A DNA stretch of 33,613 nt from Lujinxingiaceae bacterium (GTDB lineage: Bacteria > Myxococcota_A > Bradymonadia > Bradymonadales > Bradymonadaceae): positions 1-33,613 of the forward strand of contig JACCWM010000060.1 of the NCBI GenBank assembly GCA_013697635.1, written 5' to 3'. The translations under genes were made by a program, and so were the position numbers. This document shows positions 27,780 to 33,613 of this stretch, piece after piece; the first letter of the stretch is position 1, and each line of letters begins with the position of its first letter. The notes beneath the pieces were generated by a model. It was not told the origin of the DNA. It was given only the letters and a program-made list of their open reading frames with translations, and searched no databases.

Positions 27780-28934
27780 GTGACTTCTTCGCCATCCAAC
27801 ACGGTCATGATCGACGCGCGCTACCTCGACGCGCACTCGAGCGGCATCGGTCGCTACACGCGCTACCTCGTCGAAGAGCTCTTGAAGCTCGACGAGGATT
27901 TGCGCCTGCGCTTGATCACTGCGGCCGACAATCCGCGCCCTGTTGAGCATGCGCGGGTTGCATGCGAGGTGTTTCGCGCCGAGCCCAACTCGCTTCGCAC
28001 GCGCTTTGCGCTCTCGCGCATGGTCGATTTTAGCGGCGTCGATCTCTTCCACTCGCCGTTCAACATCTTGCCGGCCAACCTGCCGGTTCCGGCCGCATTT
28101 ACCCTGCACGACATCATGTGGCTGCTCGACGCGAACTTTTGCACCGATAGCCGCTGGCGCAAAGTGGTCACGGGCACCTTCTACAAGCAGTTCATCCCGC
28201 GCTCGGTGGCCCAGGCCGAGCGCATCTTCACGGTCTCGGAGCACTCCAAGCAGGCGATCGAGGCGTATTTCCCCGAGACCGAAGGTCGCGTGCACGTCAC
28301 TTACAACGGCCTCGATCCGTTTTTTGCGCCGGTTGCGCAGGCGCAAGGCTGGCCACTCTTGCGCGAGCACCTGCCCGAGGGCAGCCGCTTCGTGCTCGTC
28401 GTTGGCCAGGGCTCGCCGTACAAAAACCACGCCGGGGCGCTGGCGGGCTTTCTCGAGGCGTTTCGCGATCGCAAGGACGTCTACTTCGTGCTGGTGCGCC
28501 GGCTCAGCCGCGGGCCGGCCGAGCGGCTGCACGGTTTGATGGCCGACCCGGCGCTGGCCGGGCGCATCGTGCACCTCGAGCACATCAGCGGTGAAGCGCT
28601 GCGAGCGCTGTACAGCCTGGCGACGGTGTTCTTGTTTCCCTCGCTTTATGAGGGCTTTGGCCTGCCCGCCCTCGAGGCGATGGCCTGCGGAACGCCGGTC
28701 GTCACATCGAACACGGGCGCGCCGGCCGAGGTCGCCGGCCAGGCTGCCGTGCTCGTCGATCCACGAGACGAGCGCGCGATTGGCCGGGCGCTGACAAGGC
28801 TCTTTGACGACCCCGCACACCACGCGCACCACCAGGCGGCAGGGCTTGCGCGCGCCCAGGAGTTCAGCTGGCAGCGCACCGCCCAGGACACCCTGGCCGT
28901 CTACCGCGAGATGCTCGCCAGCAAGGGGCGCTGA
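27780..28934 (+). CDS. Glycosyltransferase family 4 (GT-B), first copy
   Basis: A 384-residue GT-B glycosyltransferase. The N-terminal domain starts with MIDARYLDAHSSGIGRYTRYL, the glycine-rich loop of GT4 acceptors, and includes DLFHSPFNILP and FTLHDIMWL. The C-terminal Rossmann domain has VVGQGSPYKNH and the retaining-enzyme EX7E motif in SLYEGFGLPALEAMACG, which contacts the sugar-nucleotide donor. It probably transfers a hexose from a nucleotide sugar to a growing polysaccharide or lipid-linked sugar at the cytoplasmic face. The GTG at 27780 starts 3 bases after the dehydrogenase stop; ATG 27807 is a possible shorter start. The next GT4 gene begins one base after its stop. Confidence 0.92.
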   Translation: MTSSPSNTVMIDARYLDAHSSGIGRYTRYLVEELLKLDEDLRLRLITAADNPRPVEHARVACEVFRAEPNSLRTRFALSRMVDFSGVDLFHSPFNILPANLPVPAAFTLHDIMWLLDANFCTDSRWRKVVTGTFYKQFIPRSVAQAERIFTVSEHSKQAIEAYFPETEGRVHVTYNGLDPFFAPVAQAQGWPLLREHLPEGSRFVLVVGQGSPYKNHAGALAGFLEAFRDRKDVYFVLVRRLSRGPAERLHGLMADPALAGRIVHLEHISGEALRALYSLATVFLFPSLYEGFGLPALEAMACGTPVVTSNTGAPAEVAGQAAVLVDPRDERAIGRALTRLFDDPAHHAHHQAAGLARAQEFSWQRTAQDTLAVYREMLASKGR

Positions 28935-28935
28935 C

Positions 28936-30087
28936 GTGGCCAGAATCTATCTCGACGCGCGCAATATCACGGCCGAACCGGCCGGCGTCGCGCGCTACGC
29001 GCGCTGCCTGATCCCGGAGCTCGTGGCCCAGGGCAAAGACCACGAGTTCATCGTGATCCGTCACGCCTCCAACCGCACGCCGCTCGAGCTCGACGGCCCC
29101 TTAAAAGAGGTGTTCATCGATCGCCCGATCGACAATCTCTCGAACTTTCTCTTCGGCAGCCGCTCACTTCGCCAGGTGTTCGCCACAAACGGCCCCGCCG
29201 ATCTCTACCACGATCTCTTCCACATCCTGCCGCGAGGCGCAGCACGCGCCAACCCCGGCGCGCCTTGCAAGGTGGTCGTCACGCTGCACGACTTCGTCTG
29301 GATCGATCACGCCCGCGACTCCCAGTCGAGCTGGCTCTCAGCCAAGACGATCGAGATCTTCGCCAGAAGCGCGATCCCTCACGCCCTTCGCGCGGCCGAC
29401 CACGTCATCTCGATCTCCGAGCCCACCACCGCCCGCGCCACCGCCTACATCGACGCTGAGCGCATCACCACGATTCCCCACGGCGTCACGCCCGAGTTCT
29501 TCGCCCACACCGCCTCGACGACCCGCGCGTTCTCCGAGCCCTATGTCGTCGCTGTCGGCAACGACAAGCGCTACAAGAACCTGCACCTGCTCATCGAGGC
29601 TTTTGCCATCGCCCGCAAGAAACTCACCCGCGGCCACCTCGTGCTCATCGGCAATTGCAAAGGTCTCGACGACGCCATCGCCCAAGCCGGCATCAGCGAG
29701 CACGTCACGCGCACGGGCTTTCTGAGTGACGAGGCTCTGCGCGATGCCCTGGCGAGCGCCCAGCTGTTCGTCTTTCCCTCGCTCGTCGAAGGATTTGGCC
29801 TGCCCATTCTCGAGGCCATGGCGATGGGCGTCCCCACCCTGGTCTGCGACCTCGAACCGATGCGCACCATAGGCGCCGACGCCGCGCTGCGCTTTTCCCC
29901 CCACGACGCCACAGCGCTCGCCACCCTGATCGAGCGTGTCTTCGAGGACGAGAGCCTGCACACCCGCCTCGCCAGCGCAGGACGAGCACGCGCGAGCGAG
30001 TTTCGATGGCCGCTGACGGCCGAGAAGACGCTGGCGGTCTACGAGCGCGTCCTGAGCACGCCACAATTTGTTGACACCAGCTCCTGA
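28936..30087 (+). CDS. Glycosyltransferase family 4 (GT-B), second copy
   Basis: A 383-residue GT-B enzyme, similar in plan to the preceding gene and probably its old paralogue: IYLDARNITAEPAGVARYAR at the start, DLYHDLFHILP, VTLHDFVWIDH, then VAVGNDKRYKNLHLLIEAF and the EX7E motif in SLVEGFGLPILEAMAMG. The two likely add successive sugars in the same glycan. A GTG start at 28936 is chosen because AAGGGG lies 8 bases upstream and the protein begins with the correct first strand; the frame also runs upstream but overlaps the first copy. It ends the operon; the region after it turns AT-rich. Confidence 0.92.
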   Translation: MARIYLDARNITAEPAGVARYARCLIPELVAQGKDHEFIVIRHASNRTPLELDGPLKEVFIDRPIDNLSNFLFGSRSLRQVFATNGPADLYHDLFHILPRGAARANPGAPCKVVVTLHDFVWIDHARDSQSSWLSAKTIEIFARSAIPHALRAADHVISISEPTTARATAYIDAERITTIPHGVTPEFFAHTASTTRAFSEPYVVAVGNDKRYKNLHLLIEAFAIARKKLTRGHLVLIGNCKGLDDAIAQAGISEHVTRTGFLSDEALRDALASAQLFVFPSLVEGFGLPILEAMAMGVPTLVCDLEPMRTIGADAALRFSPHDATALATLIERVFEDESLHTRLASAGRARASEFRWPLTAEKTLAVYERVLSTPQFVDTSS

Positions 30088-30172: not shown

Positions 30173-31738
30173 TTGAATTTCCACACTAATGTCGTCGATC
30201 AAGCTGAGGTTCCAACGTGTCTTTGCCATAAAATTTTCTCTTTCCTCATTGCTGCCCTTTTTCTGGCAATCTCCGTGGGCTGTAATCTCAGTGACCAAAC
30301 CGTCGTCCCGGTCAAGCCCAAGGTCGTCGATGACGTAGGCAACGATACGCCCGACGCGCCCAACACGTCCGACGCGTCCGACACGTCTGAGGACGAACAA
30401 GCCCCCGATCTCTGCCTCGACGTCGACTGCTCGAACCACGGCATCTGTAGCGCCGCCAGCGGCTCGGCGATGTGCAACTGCGAGGCTGGCTACGAGGGCG
30501 AGGACTGCTCGACGTGCTCCGATAGCTACCGCGCATCCGGCGACGACTGCGTCGCGATGGTGTTTTGCGACGAGGCCAGCTGCGGTGAAAATGGCAGCTG
30601 TGATGATACCAGCGGCGCAATCGCCTGCACCTGCGAGAGCGAATATGCTGGCGATCGGTGTGAGACCTGCGCCGACGGCCATTTTCTCTCCAATGGGCAG
30701 TGCTACCGCAACATTCCCTGCGACGAGGCCGACCCGTGCGGCGCATACGGTACCTGCGAGGATAGTGACCAGGGCGTGACCTGCGCTTGCGACGAGGGCC
30801 ACGACGGCGCGCGTTGCGACCAGTGTGCAGCGACGCACTATCTGGTGAACGAGAGCAGGTGCGTGTTGCGGGCAAGCTGCGACGCCGATAGCTGCAACAA
30901 CCGGGGCACTTGCAGTGACGCCACCGGGGTCATTGATTGCACGTGCACTGCCACCTATGGCGGGGAGCGCTGCGAAGGTTGCTATCCGGGCTACGTGCTG
31001 ATCGGTAGCACCTGCCAGATCGCCCAAAACTGCCAGCCCGGCTCCTGCTTTGGAAATGGCACTTGCGATGACGACTCCGGCCTTGTCGTCTGTAGCTGCG
31101 AGTTCGGCTACGGCCAGCCCAACTGCCAGGACTGCGCCACGGGCCACACCGGCGCCGGTTGCGCGAGCTGCAAGGCCGGCTACTCGATGAGCTCGACGGG
31201 TTGCACCAACATCTGTGCCGACGGCCTGCTCGTTGCGCCCGAGCTCTGCGATGACGGCAATACCGACCCCTCCAACGGCACCACCGATTTCTGCTCATCG
31301 GGCTGTAATTTCCACAACTGGCCGGACGGCACCTGGCCTGGCTACATGCCGCCTAACGTCCATGGTCGTTGGACGAACATCAGCATCAATAACAACCCTT
31401 CGCGCTACATGCGCGTCGCGGCCGGCAGCTCCCTGAGCCTCAAGGGTCATCTCAACTACGATGCCACCACCTCGGGCTGCAATGGCTGTATTAATCAGTT
31501 CTACTTGGGATTTATCTCCTCCGACCCCGATAACAATACCGACCCGCTGGAGGGAAAACACCAACGCTGTGACAATTTTGTCGGCAGCACTTCACGGGCG
31601 ATAGACTCGACCTTCACCGCACCCACCGAGCCTGGTACCTACTACCTGCGCTACAGGCACGACTGGGATTACGACTGCAATCAGGGCCTGCGCCGCCCGG
31701 GCATCGGCAATAGCCTCTTCGTGATTCACGTCGACTGA
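30173..31738 (+). CDS. EGF-repeat surface lipoprotein with unusual C-terminal domain (start uncertain)
   Basis: About 521 residues if begun at TTG 30173. The hydrophobic signal (IFSFLIAALFLAISVGC) and lipobox are clear, followed by an acidic D/T/S-rich linker (about 45-85). Five EGF-like modules of about 45 residues follow, each with the CNC, CTC or CAC turn and G-Y/H/F-x-G-x-x-C spacing, then one Myxococcus-like unit (CADGLLVAPELCDDGNTD). A C-terminal domain of about 140 residues (from NWPDGTWPGY) has a paired CNGC and ends IGNSLFVIHVD; I do not recognise it. No ATG lies before the signal. A GTG at 30217 with GAGG 7 bases upstream would start a perfect signal peptide if one base were absent near 30229, so a frameshift is suspected. 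The leader resembles that of the giant lipoprotein. Confidence 0.78.
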   Translation: MNFHTNVVDQAEVPTCLCHKIFSFLIAALFLAISVGCNLSDQTVVPVKPKVVDDVGNDTPDAPNTSDASDTSEDEQAPDLCLDVDCSNHGICSAASGSAMCNCEAGYEGEDCSTCSDSYRASGDDCVAMVFCDEASCGENGSCDDTSGAIACTCESEYAGDRCETCADGHFLSNGQCYRNIPCDEADPCGAYGTCEDSDQGVTCACDEGHDGARCDQCAATHYLVNESRCVLRASCDADSCNNRGTCSDATGVIDCTCTATYGGERCEGCYPGYVLIGSTCQIAQNCQPGSCFGNGTCDDDSGLVVCSCEFGYGQPNCQDCATGHTGAGCASCKAGYSMSSTGCTNICADGLLVAPELCDDGNTDPSNGTTDFCSSGCNFHNWPDGTWPGYMPPNVHGRWTNISINNNPSRYMRVAAGSSLSLKGHLNYDATTSGCNGCINQFYLGFISSDPDNNTDPLEGKHQRCDNFVGSTSRAIDSTFTAPTEPGTYYLRYRHDWDYDCNQGLRRPGIGNSLFVIHVD

Positions 31739-31786: not shown

Positions 31787-32446
31787 TCAAAGCGTCGCGA
31801 TGTAGGCAAATATCTGCTCGTGCAACGCCTCGATCGGCGCGCTCGCATCGAGGCGCACGATGCGCTGCCCCTCACTCGCCAGCATGTCCATGACCTCGTC
31901 GTAGCGCCGCTCAAGGCGCGCCATCTTCTCGCGCGTCTCGAAGATGTCGCGGCGCGCGCGCTGGTCCAGGCGCGACAGACAAAGCTCGGTCGACGCTTCC
32001 AGAAAAAACGTCACGTCCGGCACGAGCGCGCGCTCGTTGATCGTCTGCACCCACGAATAATCCATCGCCTCGCTGCCGTCGACGTCGCCCTGGTAGATCA
32101 AGCTCGAGGGCACATAGCGATCGCTTATCACGAGCCGGCCTGCGGCCAGGGCCGGGCGAATCTCGGCGTCGATGTGGTCGAGCCGGTCGGCGGCAAACAT
32201 CAGCGCCAGCGTCTCACGGCCGATGGGACCGACGCCTCCCTCGGCCAGCGGCAAGACGACGCGCATCGAGAGCATCTGGCGGATCAAGACGCCGATCGGG
32301 CCGTCGCTGGGCTCGCGCGTCAAGATCGCCGGCTGGCCTTCGCGCTCGAGGCGGCCAAGCAACAAGCGCGACTGGGTGGTGGTGCCGGCGCCGTCGAGGC
32401 CTTCGACCACGACAAAGGGCGGTCTTGCGAGGGGAAAGCTGTGCAT
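31787..32446 (-). CDS. tmk: Thymidylate kinase-like protein with altered Walker A loop
   Basis: A 219-residue P-loop kinase of the dTMP kinase family. Diagnostic parts are VVEGLDGAG-TTTQ near the N-terminus, the TREPSDGPIG dTMP-binding loop, LALMFAADRLDHI, the DRY motif in ISDRYVPSSLIYQGD, and a LID helix rich in Arg (RLDQRARRDIFETREKMARL). The normal Walker A lysine (GxxGxGKT/S) is replaced by Thr22 (codon ACC, clear in the DNA). Canonical enzymes phosphorylate dTMP to dTDP with ATP. Whether this one is active, or is a repurposed paralogue, is unknown. It begins 11 bases after the crotonase stop in the same minus operon. Confidence 0.85.
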   Translation of the reverse strand: MHSFPLARPPFVVVEGLDGAGTTTQSRLLLGRLEREGQPAILTREPSDGPIGVLIRQMLSMRVVLPLAEGGVGPIGRETLALMFAADRLDHIDAEIRPALAAGRLVISDRYVPSSLIYQGDVDGSEAMDYSWVQTINERALVPDVTFFLEASTELCLSRLDQRARRDIFETREKMARLERRYDEVMDMLASEGQRIVRLDASAPIEALHEQIFAYIATL

Positions 32447-32457
32447 GAGACCTGCTG

Positions 32458-33222
32458 CTAAGAAGTGGGTTTGCGTTTCAGAAACTGCTCTACCCGAGCC
32501 TGGTGTTCATCGCCAGTCCAGAGCGCGCAAAACGGGGCCATTTCGGCGGCGATCGCCTGACTGCGGGGCAACTCGAGTGCGCGAAGCGCGCCTTGTTTGA
32601 GCGCGCCGATCAGCTCACGATCTTGGACGGCCAGCTCTTCGGCCCAGGCGCGCGTGGCCGCCTGAAGCTCTGAGGCCGGCGCGATGCGGTCGATCAGGTT
32701 TGTGGCCAGGGCCTGCTCTGTGTCGAGGACCGCGCATTGGGCAAGCCAGCCCAGCGCGCGGCGCCGGCCCACACATTCGACAAGACGCGTCAGCCCGCCC
32801 CAGCCCGGCGTCAGATGGAAGCGGGCCTGGGTAAACCCAAAGCGCGCATGGTCGCTGGCGATTCGAAAATCAAAGGCCAGCGCCAGCTCGCAGCCGCCGC
32901 CATAGGCGTCGCCGTTGATGCTGGCGATCGTCCAGCAGTCGAGCCGCTCAAAGCCATTCAAGATCGCGTGCATGCGTGCGCCCATGCGCTCGACGTCATC
33001 ATGGGTGGTGAGCGCGTGAAAGGCGCGCAAGTCGCCGCCGGCCACAAAAGCACGCGAGCCTTGGCCACGCAGCACGAAGACACGCAGCCCCGGCGAGCGT
33101 TGCAGCAACTCGAGCGCGTCCTCCAGGCCTTTCATGACCGAGAAGTCGATCGCGTTGAGCGCGTCAGGCCGGTCGATCTCGGCGTAGAGCACCGCGCCTT
33201 CGCTATGGATGGCGAAGCTCAT
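32458..33222 (-). CDS. Enoyl-CoA hydratase/isomerase (crotonase) family protein
   Basis: A 254-residue crotonase-fold protein. The oxyanion-hole segments are seen in FVAGGDLRAF (about 59-68) and in the SINGDAYGGGCELALAFDFRIAS stretch (about 100-122), and the C-terminal core in FGFTQARFHLTPGWGGLTRL. Crotonases hydrate, isomerise or cleave acyl-CoA thioesters. The usual catalytic Glu pair cannot both be assigned from one sequence, so the exact reaction is open (hydratase and isomerase are both possible). ATG at 33222 overlaps the stop of the HEAT protein by four bases. The tmk-like gene follows after 11 bases, so the three are one operon. Confidence 0.9.
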   Translation of the reverse strand: MSFAIHSEGAVLYAEIDRPDALNAIDFSVMKGLEDALELLQRSPGLRVFVLRGQGSRAFVAGGDLRAFHALTTHDDVERMGARMHAILNGFERLDCWTIASINGDAYGGGCELALAFDFRIASDHARFGFTQARFHLTPGWGGLTRLVECVGRRRALGWLAQCAVLDTEQALATNLIDRIAPASELQAATRAWAEELAVQDRELIGALKQGALRALELPRSQAIAAEMAPFCALWTGDEHQARVEQFLKRKPTS

Positions 33223-33613
33223 GGCTGCCTGCCGCTTAGCTTCTTCGCGCGCTCCAGGCTCTCACGCGCCGCATCGCGCACACGCGGCTCGCCGTGGGCC
33301 TGCTCGAGCGTCTCGAGGTAGATGCGCGCGCCGGGATCGTCGAGGCGGCCAAGGGTGTAGATGAGCTGAACCATCTCTTCGTGCTGGCGAGCGCGGCTCA
33401 TGCGCTCGGTGGCTGCGACGAGTTGGGGCGCGGCGTTGTTCGCACCGAGATGGGAGAGCGCGGCCCCGGCGGCGATCACCAGCGCGTCGTTATCATGCTC
33501 GAGCAGCGCGAGCAGCGCCGGCTCGGCCTCACTGATGCCGCGCTCGCGCGCCTCGTGGATGGCGAGCAGGCGCGTGCGATCCGTGAGCTCGGCGTTGGCC
33601 AGCAGTTCTGCGA
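33219..33613 (-). CDS. HEAT-repeat protein, C-terminal part (N-terminus outside window)
   Basis: The frame is open to the right edge of the window and ends in a TGA at 33219-33221, so about 130 residues are seen. They form amphipathic helix pairs of HEAT / PBS-lyase-like repeats: ALLALLEHDNDALVIAAGAA, QLVAATERMSRARQHEEMVQ and LGRLDDPGARIYLETLEQAH. No catalytic motif is visible. Its stop overlaps the crotonase start (ATGA), so these genes are translated together. The role is presumably scaffolding; the N-terminal part may hold another domain. Confidence 0.75.
   Translation of the reverse strand, partial: AELLANAELTDRTRLLAIHEARERGISEAEPALLALLEHDNDALVIAAGAALSHLGANNAAPQLVAATERMSRARQHEEMVQLIYTLGRLDDPGARIYLETLEQAHGEPRVRDAARESLERAKKLSGRQP

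Follow-up and report, generated by a model that had tools for sequence, protein, structure and literature searches.

A lineage of putative dTMP kinases with another residue, mostly threonine, in place of the Walker A lysine

The stretch of DNA analysed here (33,613 nucleotides, in the following called the window) contains a tmk gene for a predicted dTMP kinase or thymidylate kinase (TMPK). The main genes and motifs are compiled in Table 1. Over its whole length the reading frame scores 150.9 bits with the NCBIfam profile TIGR00041 dTMP_kinase (cut-off 83.25) and 141.1 bits with Pfam PF02223 (cut-off 27). Its P-loop, VVEGLDGAGTTTQ, has Thr22 at the position of the Walker A lysine. The crotonase gene located directly upstream is probably co-transcribed with tmk; a gene for a HEAT-repeat protein lies further upstream. 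A HEAT gene is found near tmk in many family members but a crotonase homologue occurs there only in part of them, i.e. in several relatives; therefore these neighbours say nothing specific on the function of tmk, and a functional reading based on the operon was rejected. On the other strand a predicted protein resembling lipoproteins and containing repeats of a Cys-rich EGF-like unit was seen by eye, adjoined by two glycosyltransferase-like genes.

Table 1. Genes and motifs discussed in the text, with their positions in the window
Feature	Position	Strand	Basis
tmk, predicted dTMP kinase (219 aa) with lysine-less Walker A	31787..32446	minus	TIGR00041 and PF02223 scores, AlphaFold2 model, structural matches
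Walker A / P-loop, residues 16-24, GLDGAGTTT	32375..32401	minus	sequence
Codon ACC of Thr22	32381-32383	minus	window sequence
DRY motif, residues 109-111	32114..32122	minus	alignment
LID segment, residues 159-170, RLDQRARRDIFE	31937..31972	minus	alignment
Enoyl-CoA hydratase/isomerase (crotonase)	32458..33222	minus	PF00378, 133.6 bits
HEAT-repeat protein, truncated at the window end	33219..33611	minus	PF13646, 33.9 bits
Lipoprotein-like protein (521 aa), predicted	30173-31738	plus	by eye
Glycosyltransferase-like gene	27780-28934		by eye
Glycosyltransferase-like gene	~28804-30087		by eye

The classical Walker A pattern GxxxxGK[ST] does not match the window protein, which is devoid of the lysine, and throughout its lineage T, S or G are found at this position. 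Since this member scores above the cut-offs, the Walker A lysine is not demanded by the dTMP kinase family profiles. The residues D18, F84, R88, S114, Y118 and Q119 are all present and near-invariant in the alignment; they comprise the dTMP site and the P-loop acid, D18 being the counterpart of the acid specific for TMPKs (PMC3169407). Type II TMPKs are defined by Gly after the P-loop acid and by a catalytic LID arginine (R153 in Escherichia coli, where the roles of LID residues have been described; PMC3169407), and the window protein has Gly19 in this place as well as R163 aligned with R153. With the type II enzyme of E. coli (TIGR00041; 4TMK) it has in common the fold, the P-loop acid followed by Gly, the DR[YH] motif, the dTMP-site residues and the LID arginines at the positions of R149 (here R159) and R153. 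It differs from it in the replacement of Walker A Lys16 by Thr, in Ile168 in place of LID R158 and in an “LLFAADRxDH” helix with a His91 that does not vary within the lysine-less class. The view of the preliminary description that the Arg-rich LID is intact is broadly correct, with R159 and R163 retained and Ile168 as the exception. Arg110 of DRY is present in 124 of 124 compared proteins (77 lysine-less, 47 with lysine). A loss of the R158 arginine specific for the lysine-less class was considered and discarded, as this arginine is rare in both groups (8/77 and 6/47).

An AlphaFold2 model of the window protein based on 24 sequences (pLDDT 91.6, pTM 0.88) confidently shows the TMPK fold. Its best structural matches are thymidylate kinases from human, Aquifex, Thermotoga and Thermus with Z values of 24-25 and rmsd values of 1.5-1.8 Å, and the listed best Foldseek and VIA-align matches comprise thymidylate kinases only. 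The very best one is the human type I enzyme (1E2G/1NN5), with 1e2g reaching Z 25.2 and 1.5 Å over 190 residues. Also the “LLFxAxRxxH” helix and the LID “xYE” are shared with a type I enzyme, namely Plasmodium TMK (2WWF). Unlike type I TMPKs, the window protein has neither the P-loop arginine after the aspartate, with Gly19 in its place, nor the lysine. An engineered loss at the same position is represented by the crystallised K16M variant of Thermus thermophilus TMK (PDB 5x8j, considered here as structure entry alone); there the substitution is Met and was made in the laboratory in a naturally lysine-bearing enzyme, whereas the Thr described here is natural.

The preliminary description had reported the exchange of Lys for Thr in GLDGAG-T-TTQ and had argued from the ACC codon that it is no simple misreading. 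It is correct that two base changes separate AAG or AAA from ACC, but the codon alone proves little because many relatives use ACG, a single step from AAG. That Thr22 is no sequencing error follows from homologues in independent assemblies, which share the residue and use all four Thr codons. The tmk gene is also under constraint, as had been supposed: dN/dS amounts to about 0.08-0.11 for close pairs and to 0.18-0.35 for more distant pairs with defined dS, and the model is of high confidence. The genome assembly is a draft of 213 contigs, which could raise the suspicion of an error, a pseudogene or a contaminating contig. The probability of such a reading is practically negligible, since the same residue occurs with different codons in dozens of independent assemblies, the frame is open with dN/dS well below 1, and the neighbours of tmk are conserved in the family. 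Hence, both sequencing error and decay were ruled out by the homologues and the dN/dS values.

Among the relatives the replacement is widespread. In the family of the window genome the gene was detected in 17 further genomes (16 times complete, once partial), and all of them have T at this position except for one with S. At the level of the phylum, where representatives of the families were read, T, S or G occur in 22 of 38 families and K in 16, including the sister family f2. Family f27 is mixed, as its representative has K and the tmk of genome G170 matches the T pattern, and in families f23 and f26 (L065, L073, L081) the position is taken by glycine (GSGGTTQ), i.e. there is no side chain at all. 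Of the 377 genomes available for the phylum, 171 were hit by a search for the pattern D-G-x-G-T-[ST]-T-Q at the DNA level, compared with about 5 for the reversed control; three odd forward hits that were examined (G109, G051, G044) were chance matches outside tmk, and approximately 165 of the 377 genomes are likely to be true carriers. In Sumerlaeota a minority carries the type (T in L105, L140, L150 and L157; S in L155 and L156). In the phylum of L039 a lysine-less tmk was detected in 1 of 145 genomes and in that of L037 in 0 of 148, the single pattern match being located outside tmk.

The motif is found in viruses, too. Twenty viral contigs of IMG/VR carry it in a tmk-like frame, and these TMPKs (PHROG 761), like that of the cultured halovirus HGTV-1 (L160, AGM11404.1), belong to the same family, with the P-loops GTTTQ, GTSTQ or GTTTV; the viral-contig enzymes share 30-41% identity with the window protein. 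Unlike the latter, the HGTV-1 enzyme has a shortened, arginine-poor LID. Its P-loop reads GAGTTTV compared with GAGKTLV in another archaeal virus, halovirus HCTV-5 (L164); in the cultured HGTV-1 the lysine may have been replaced independently.

The phylogeny of the 124 proteins was reconstructed by a quick search with the lysine column left out. All 77 T, S or G proteins fall on one side of the tree, and three lysine proteins are nested among them (one of family f28 of the same phylum, one Saprospiraceae record and one Staskawiczbacteria record). The branch separating this side obtained 89% SH-aLRT in the quick search and is not starred; from these sequences a single origin of the lysine-less enzymes is likely, albeit not proven. 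The tree requires that lysine was gained or lost at this position at least four times. The best supported of the nested enzymes is that of f28 (97% and 93%), and its position suggests either a reversion or repeated loss. We lean towards the view that one broadly distributed branch of this essential P-loop kinase, present in much of a bacterial phylum, in some other bacteria and in phages, has given up the Walker A lysine, that Thr, Ser, Gly and Lys were interchanged at this position in the course of evolution and that the lysine is optional there for phosphoryl transfer.

The role of the protein in its own cell can be approached from the genome (6.2 Mb, 99.45% complete), in which the PF02223 profile found the window tmk with 140 bits and two weak matches with 30 and 21 bits. 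The latter (L002, L003) have ordinary GKTT and GKST P-loops and, judged by sequence, look like deoxynucleoside kinases; a second tmk, with a normal P-loop or otherwise, was not found by this search. The genome contains ThyA, and a ThyX was not detected in it; the cell thus produces its dTMP de novo and requires a dTMP kinase. As the sole recognisable dTMP kinase is lysine-less, the cell apparently makes its DNA precursors with a lysine-free P-loop. In the preliminary description a second, repurposed kinase had been envisaged. According to such a reading the T-type protein would act on another nucleotide or would be a pseudokinase, with dTDP supplied by another enzyme. It could refer to the loss of a residue thought to be catalytic and to the two deoxynucleoside kinase-like proteins with normal P-loops, but we consider it very unlikely, since ThyA makes dTMP in a genome in which no other tmk was found, the residues of the dTMP site do not vary, the P-loop Asp specific for TMPKs among them, and 22 families of the phylum have the lysine-less type as their main tmk. 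It had also been stated beforehand that a sole tmk in the genome, together with Thr being common in the phylum, would speak for a plain family variant, and both were found. We therefore regard it as highly probable that the window gene encodes the housekeeping dTMP kinase of this genome, belonging to a type II-like TMPK lineage that mostly has Thr, and in some cases Ser or Gly, instead of the Walker A lysine, and that the enzyme is active independently of this lysine, with the charge presumably coming from Mg2+ and the arginines of DRY and LID.

What counts against an active enzyme of this kind is that in NMP kinases the P-loop lysine is generally regarded as essential. Loss of the lysine need not abolish the activity of a P-loop kinase, because in the K14A variant of mycobacterial dephospho-CoA kinase kcat decreased by only 19% (PMC3019153). 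In the putative active window enzyme the ATP phosphates would be held by backbone amides of the P-loop and, via Thr23, by Mg2+, whereas the charge of the β and γ phosphates might be met by Arg110 of DRY together with LID Arg159 and Arg163; the hydroxyl group of Thr22 could serve as hydrogen-bond donor. Arg110 is the counterpart of human Arg97, the DR(Y) arginine that touches the γ phosphate (PMC9599734), and R163 that of E. coli R153. In the alignment D18, F84, R88, R110 and S114 occur in 77 of 77 lysine-less proteins and R159 is invariant within this class; some of the T enzymes have Ala, Ser or Cys instead of R163, which makes the exact charge donor uncertain.

The idea that LID arginines compensate for the lysine was already raised at the outset and is possible, but a feature specific for the clade did not emerge. 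In fixed alignment columns R163 seemed to be such a compensating arginine (88% versus 47%), but when the LID is counted without fixed columns this gap is gone, as nearly all enzymes without and with the lysine (75 of 77 and 46 of 47, respectively) have a basic residue 3-6 positions past R159; the candidate was thus rejected. An invariantly basic position unique to the lysine-less class was not found in the comparison of these 77 and 47 proteins. A relocated charge would mean that one specific basic residue, either His91, a LID arginine or a residue of the dimer partner, stands in for the lysine. This is compatible with the housekeeping kinase outlined above as a sub-hypothesis but appears doubtful. 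His91 is found in 77/77 lysine-less versus 25/47 lysine enzymes, and position 166 is more often basic in the former (52% versus 4%). However, His91 is also carried by the three nested lysine enzymes and, alongside a normal GKS loop, by Plasmodium TMK, so that it marks the lineage; moreover, position 166 is not invariant and lysine enzymes have basic LID residues just as often.

A Walker A lysine is regarded as the hallmark of P-loop NTPases, and mutants of this residue usually serve as “dead” controls. The lysine-less P-loop described here is neither a defect nor a peculiarity of one strain; it represents a variant, shared by a whole lineage, of an ordinary housekeeping enzyme. In the open literature searched neither biochemistry on any lysine-less TMPK nor a description of such an enzyme or its lineage was found. 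The lineage represents a natural test of the indispensability of this lysine: with Lys, Ser and Gly relatives nested among Thr ones in an essential enzyme, its real contribution would become measurable in natural backgrounds. Annotators should be warned not to label lysine-less proteins of this kind as inactive. As a separate observation, tandem tmk-like reading frames occur in some members of the phylum (L082/L083 on G002:C503 and L078/L088 on G168:C291), one having a normal GSGKSTQ loop and its neighbour GSGRSTQ, i.e. the Walker A Lys is replaced by Arg, and several Sumerlaeota genomes have paired PF02223 matches on one contig.
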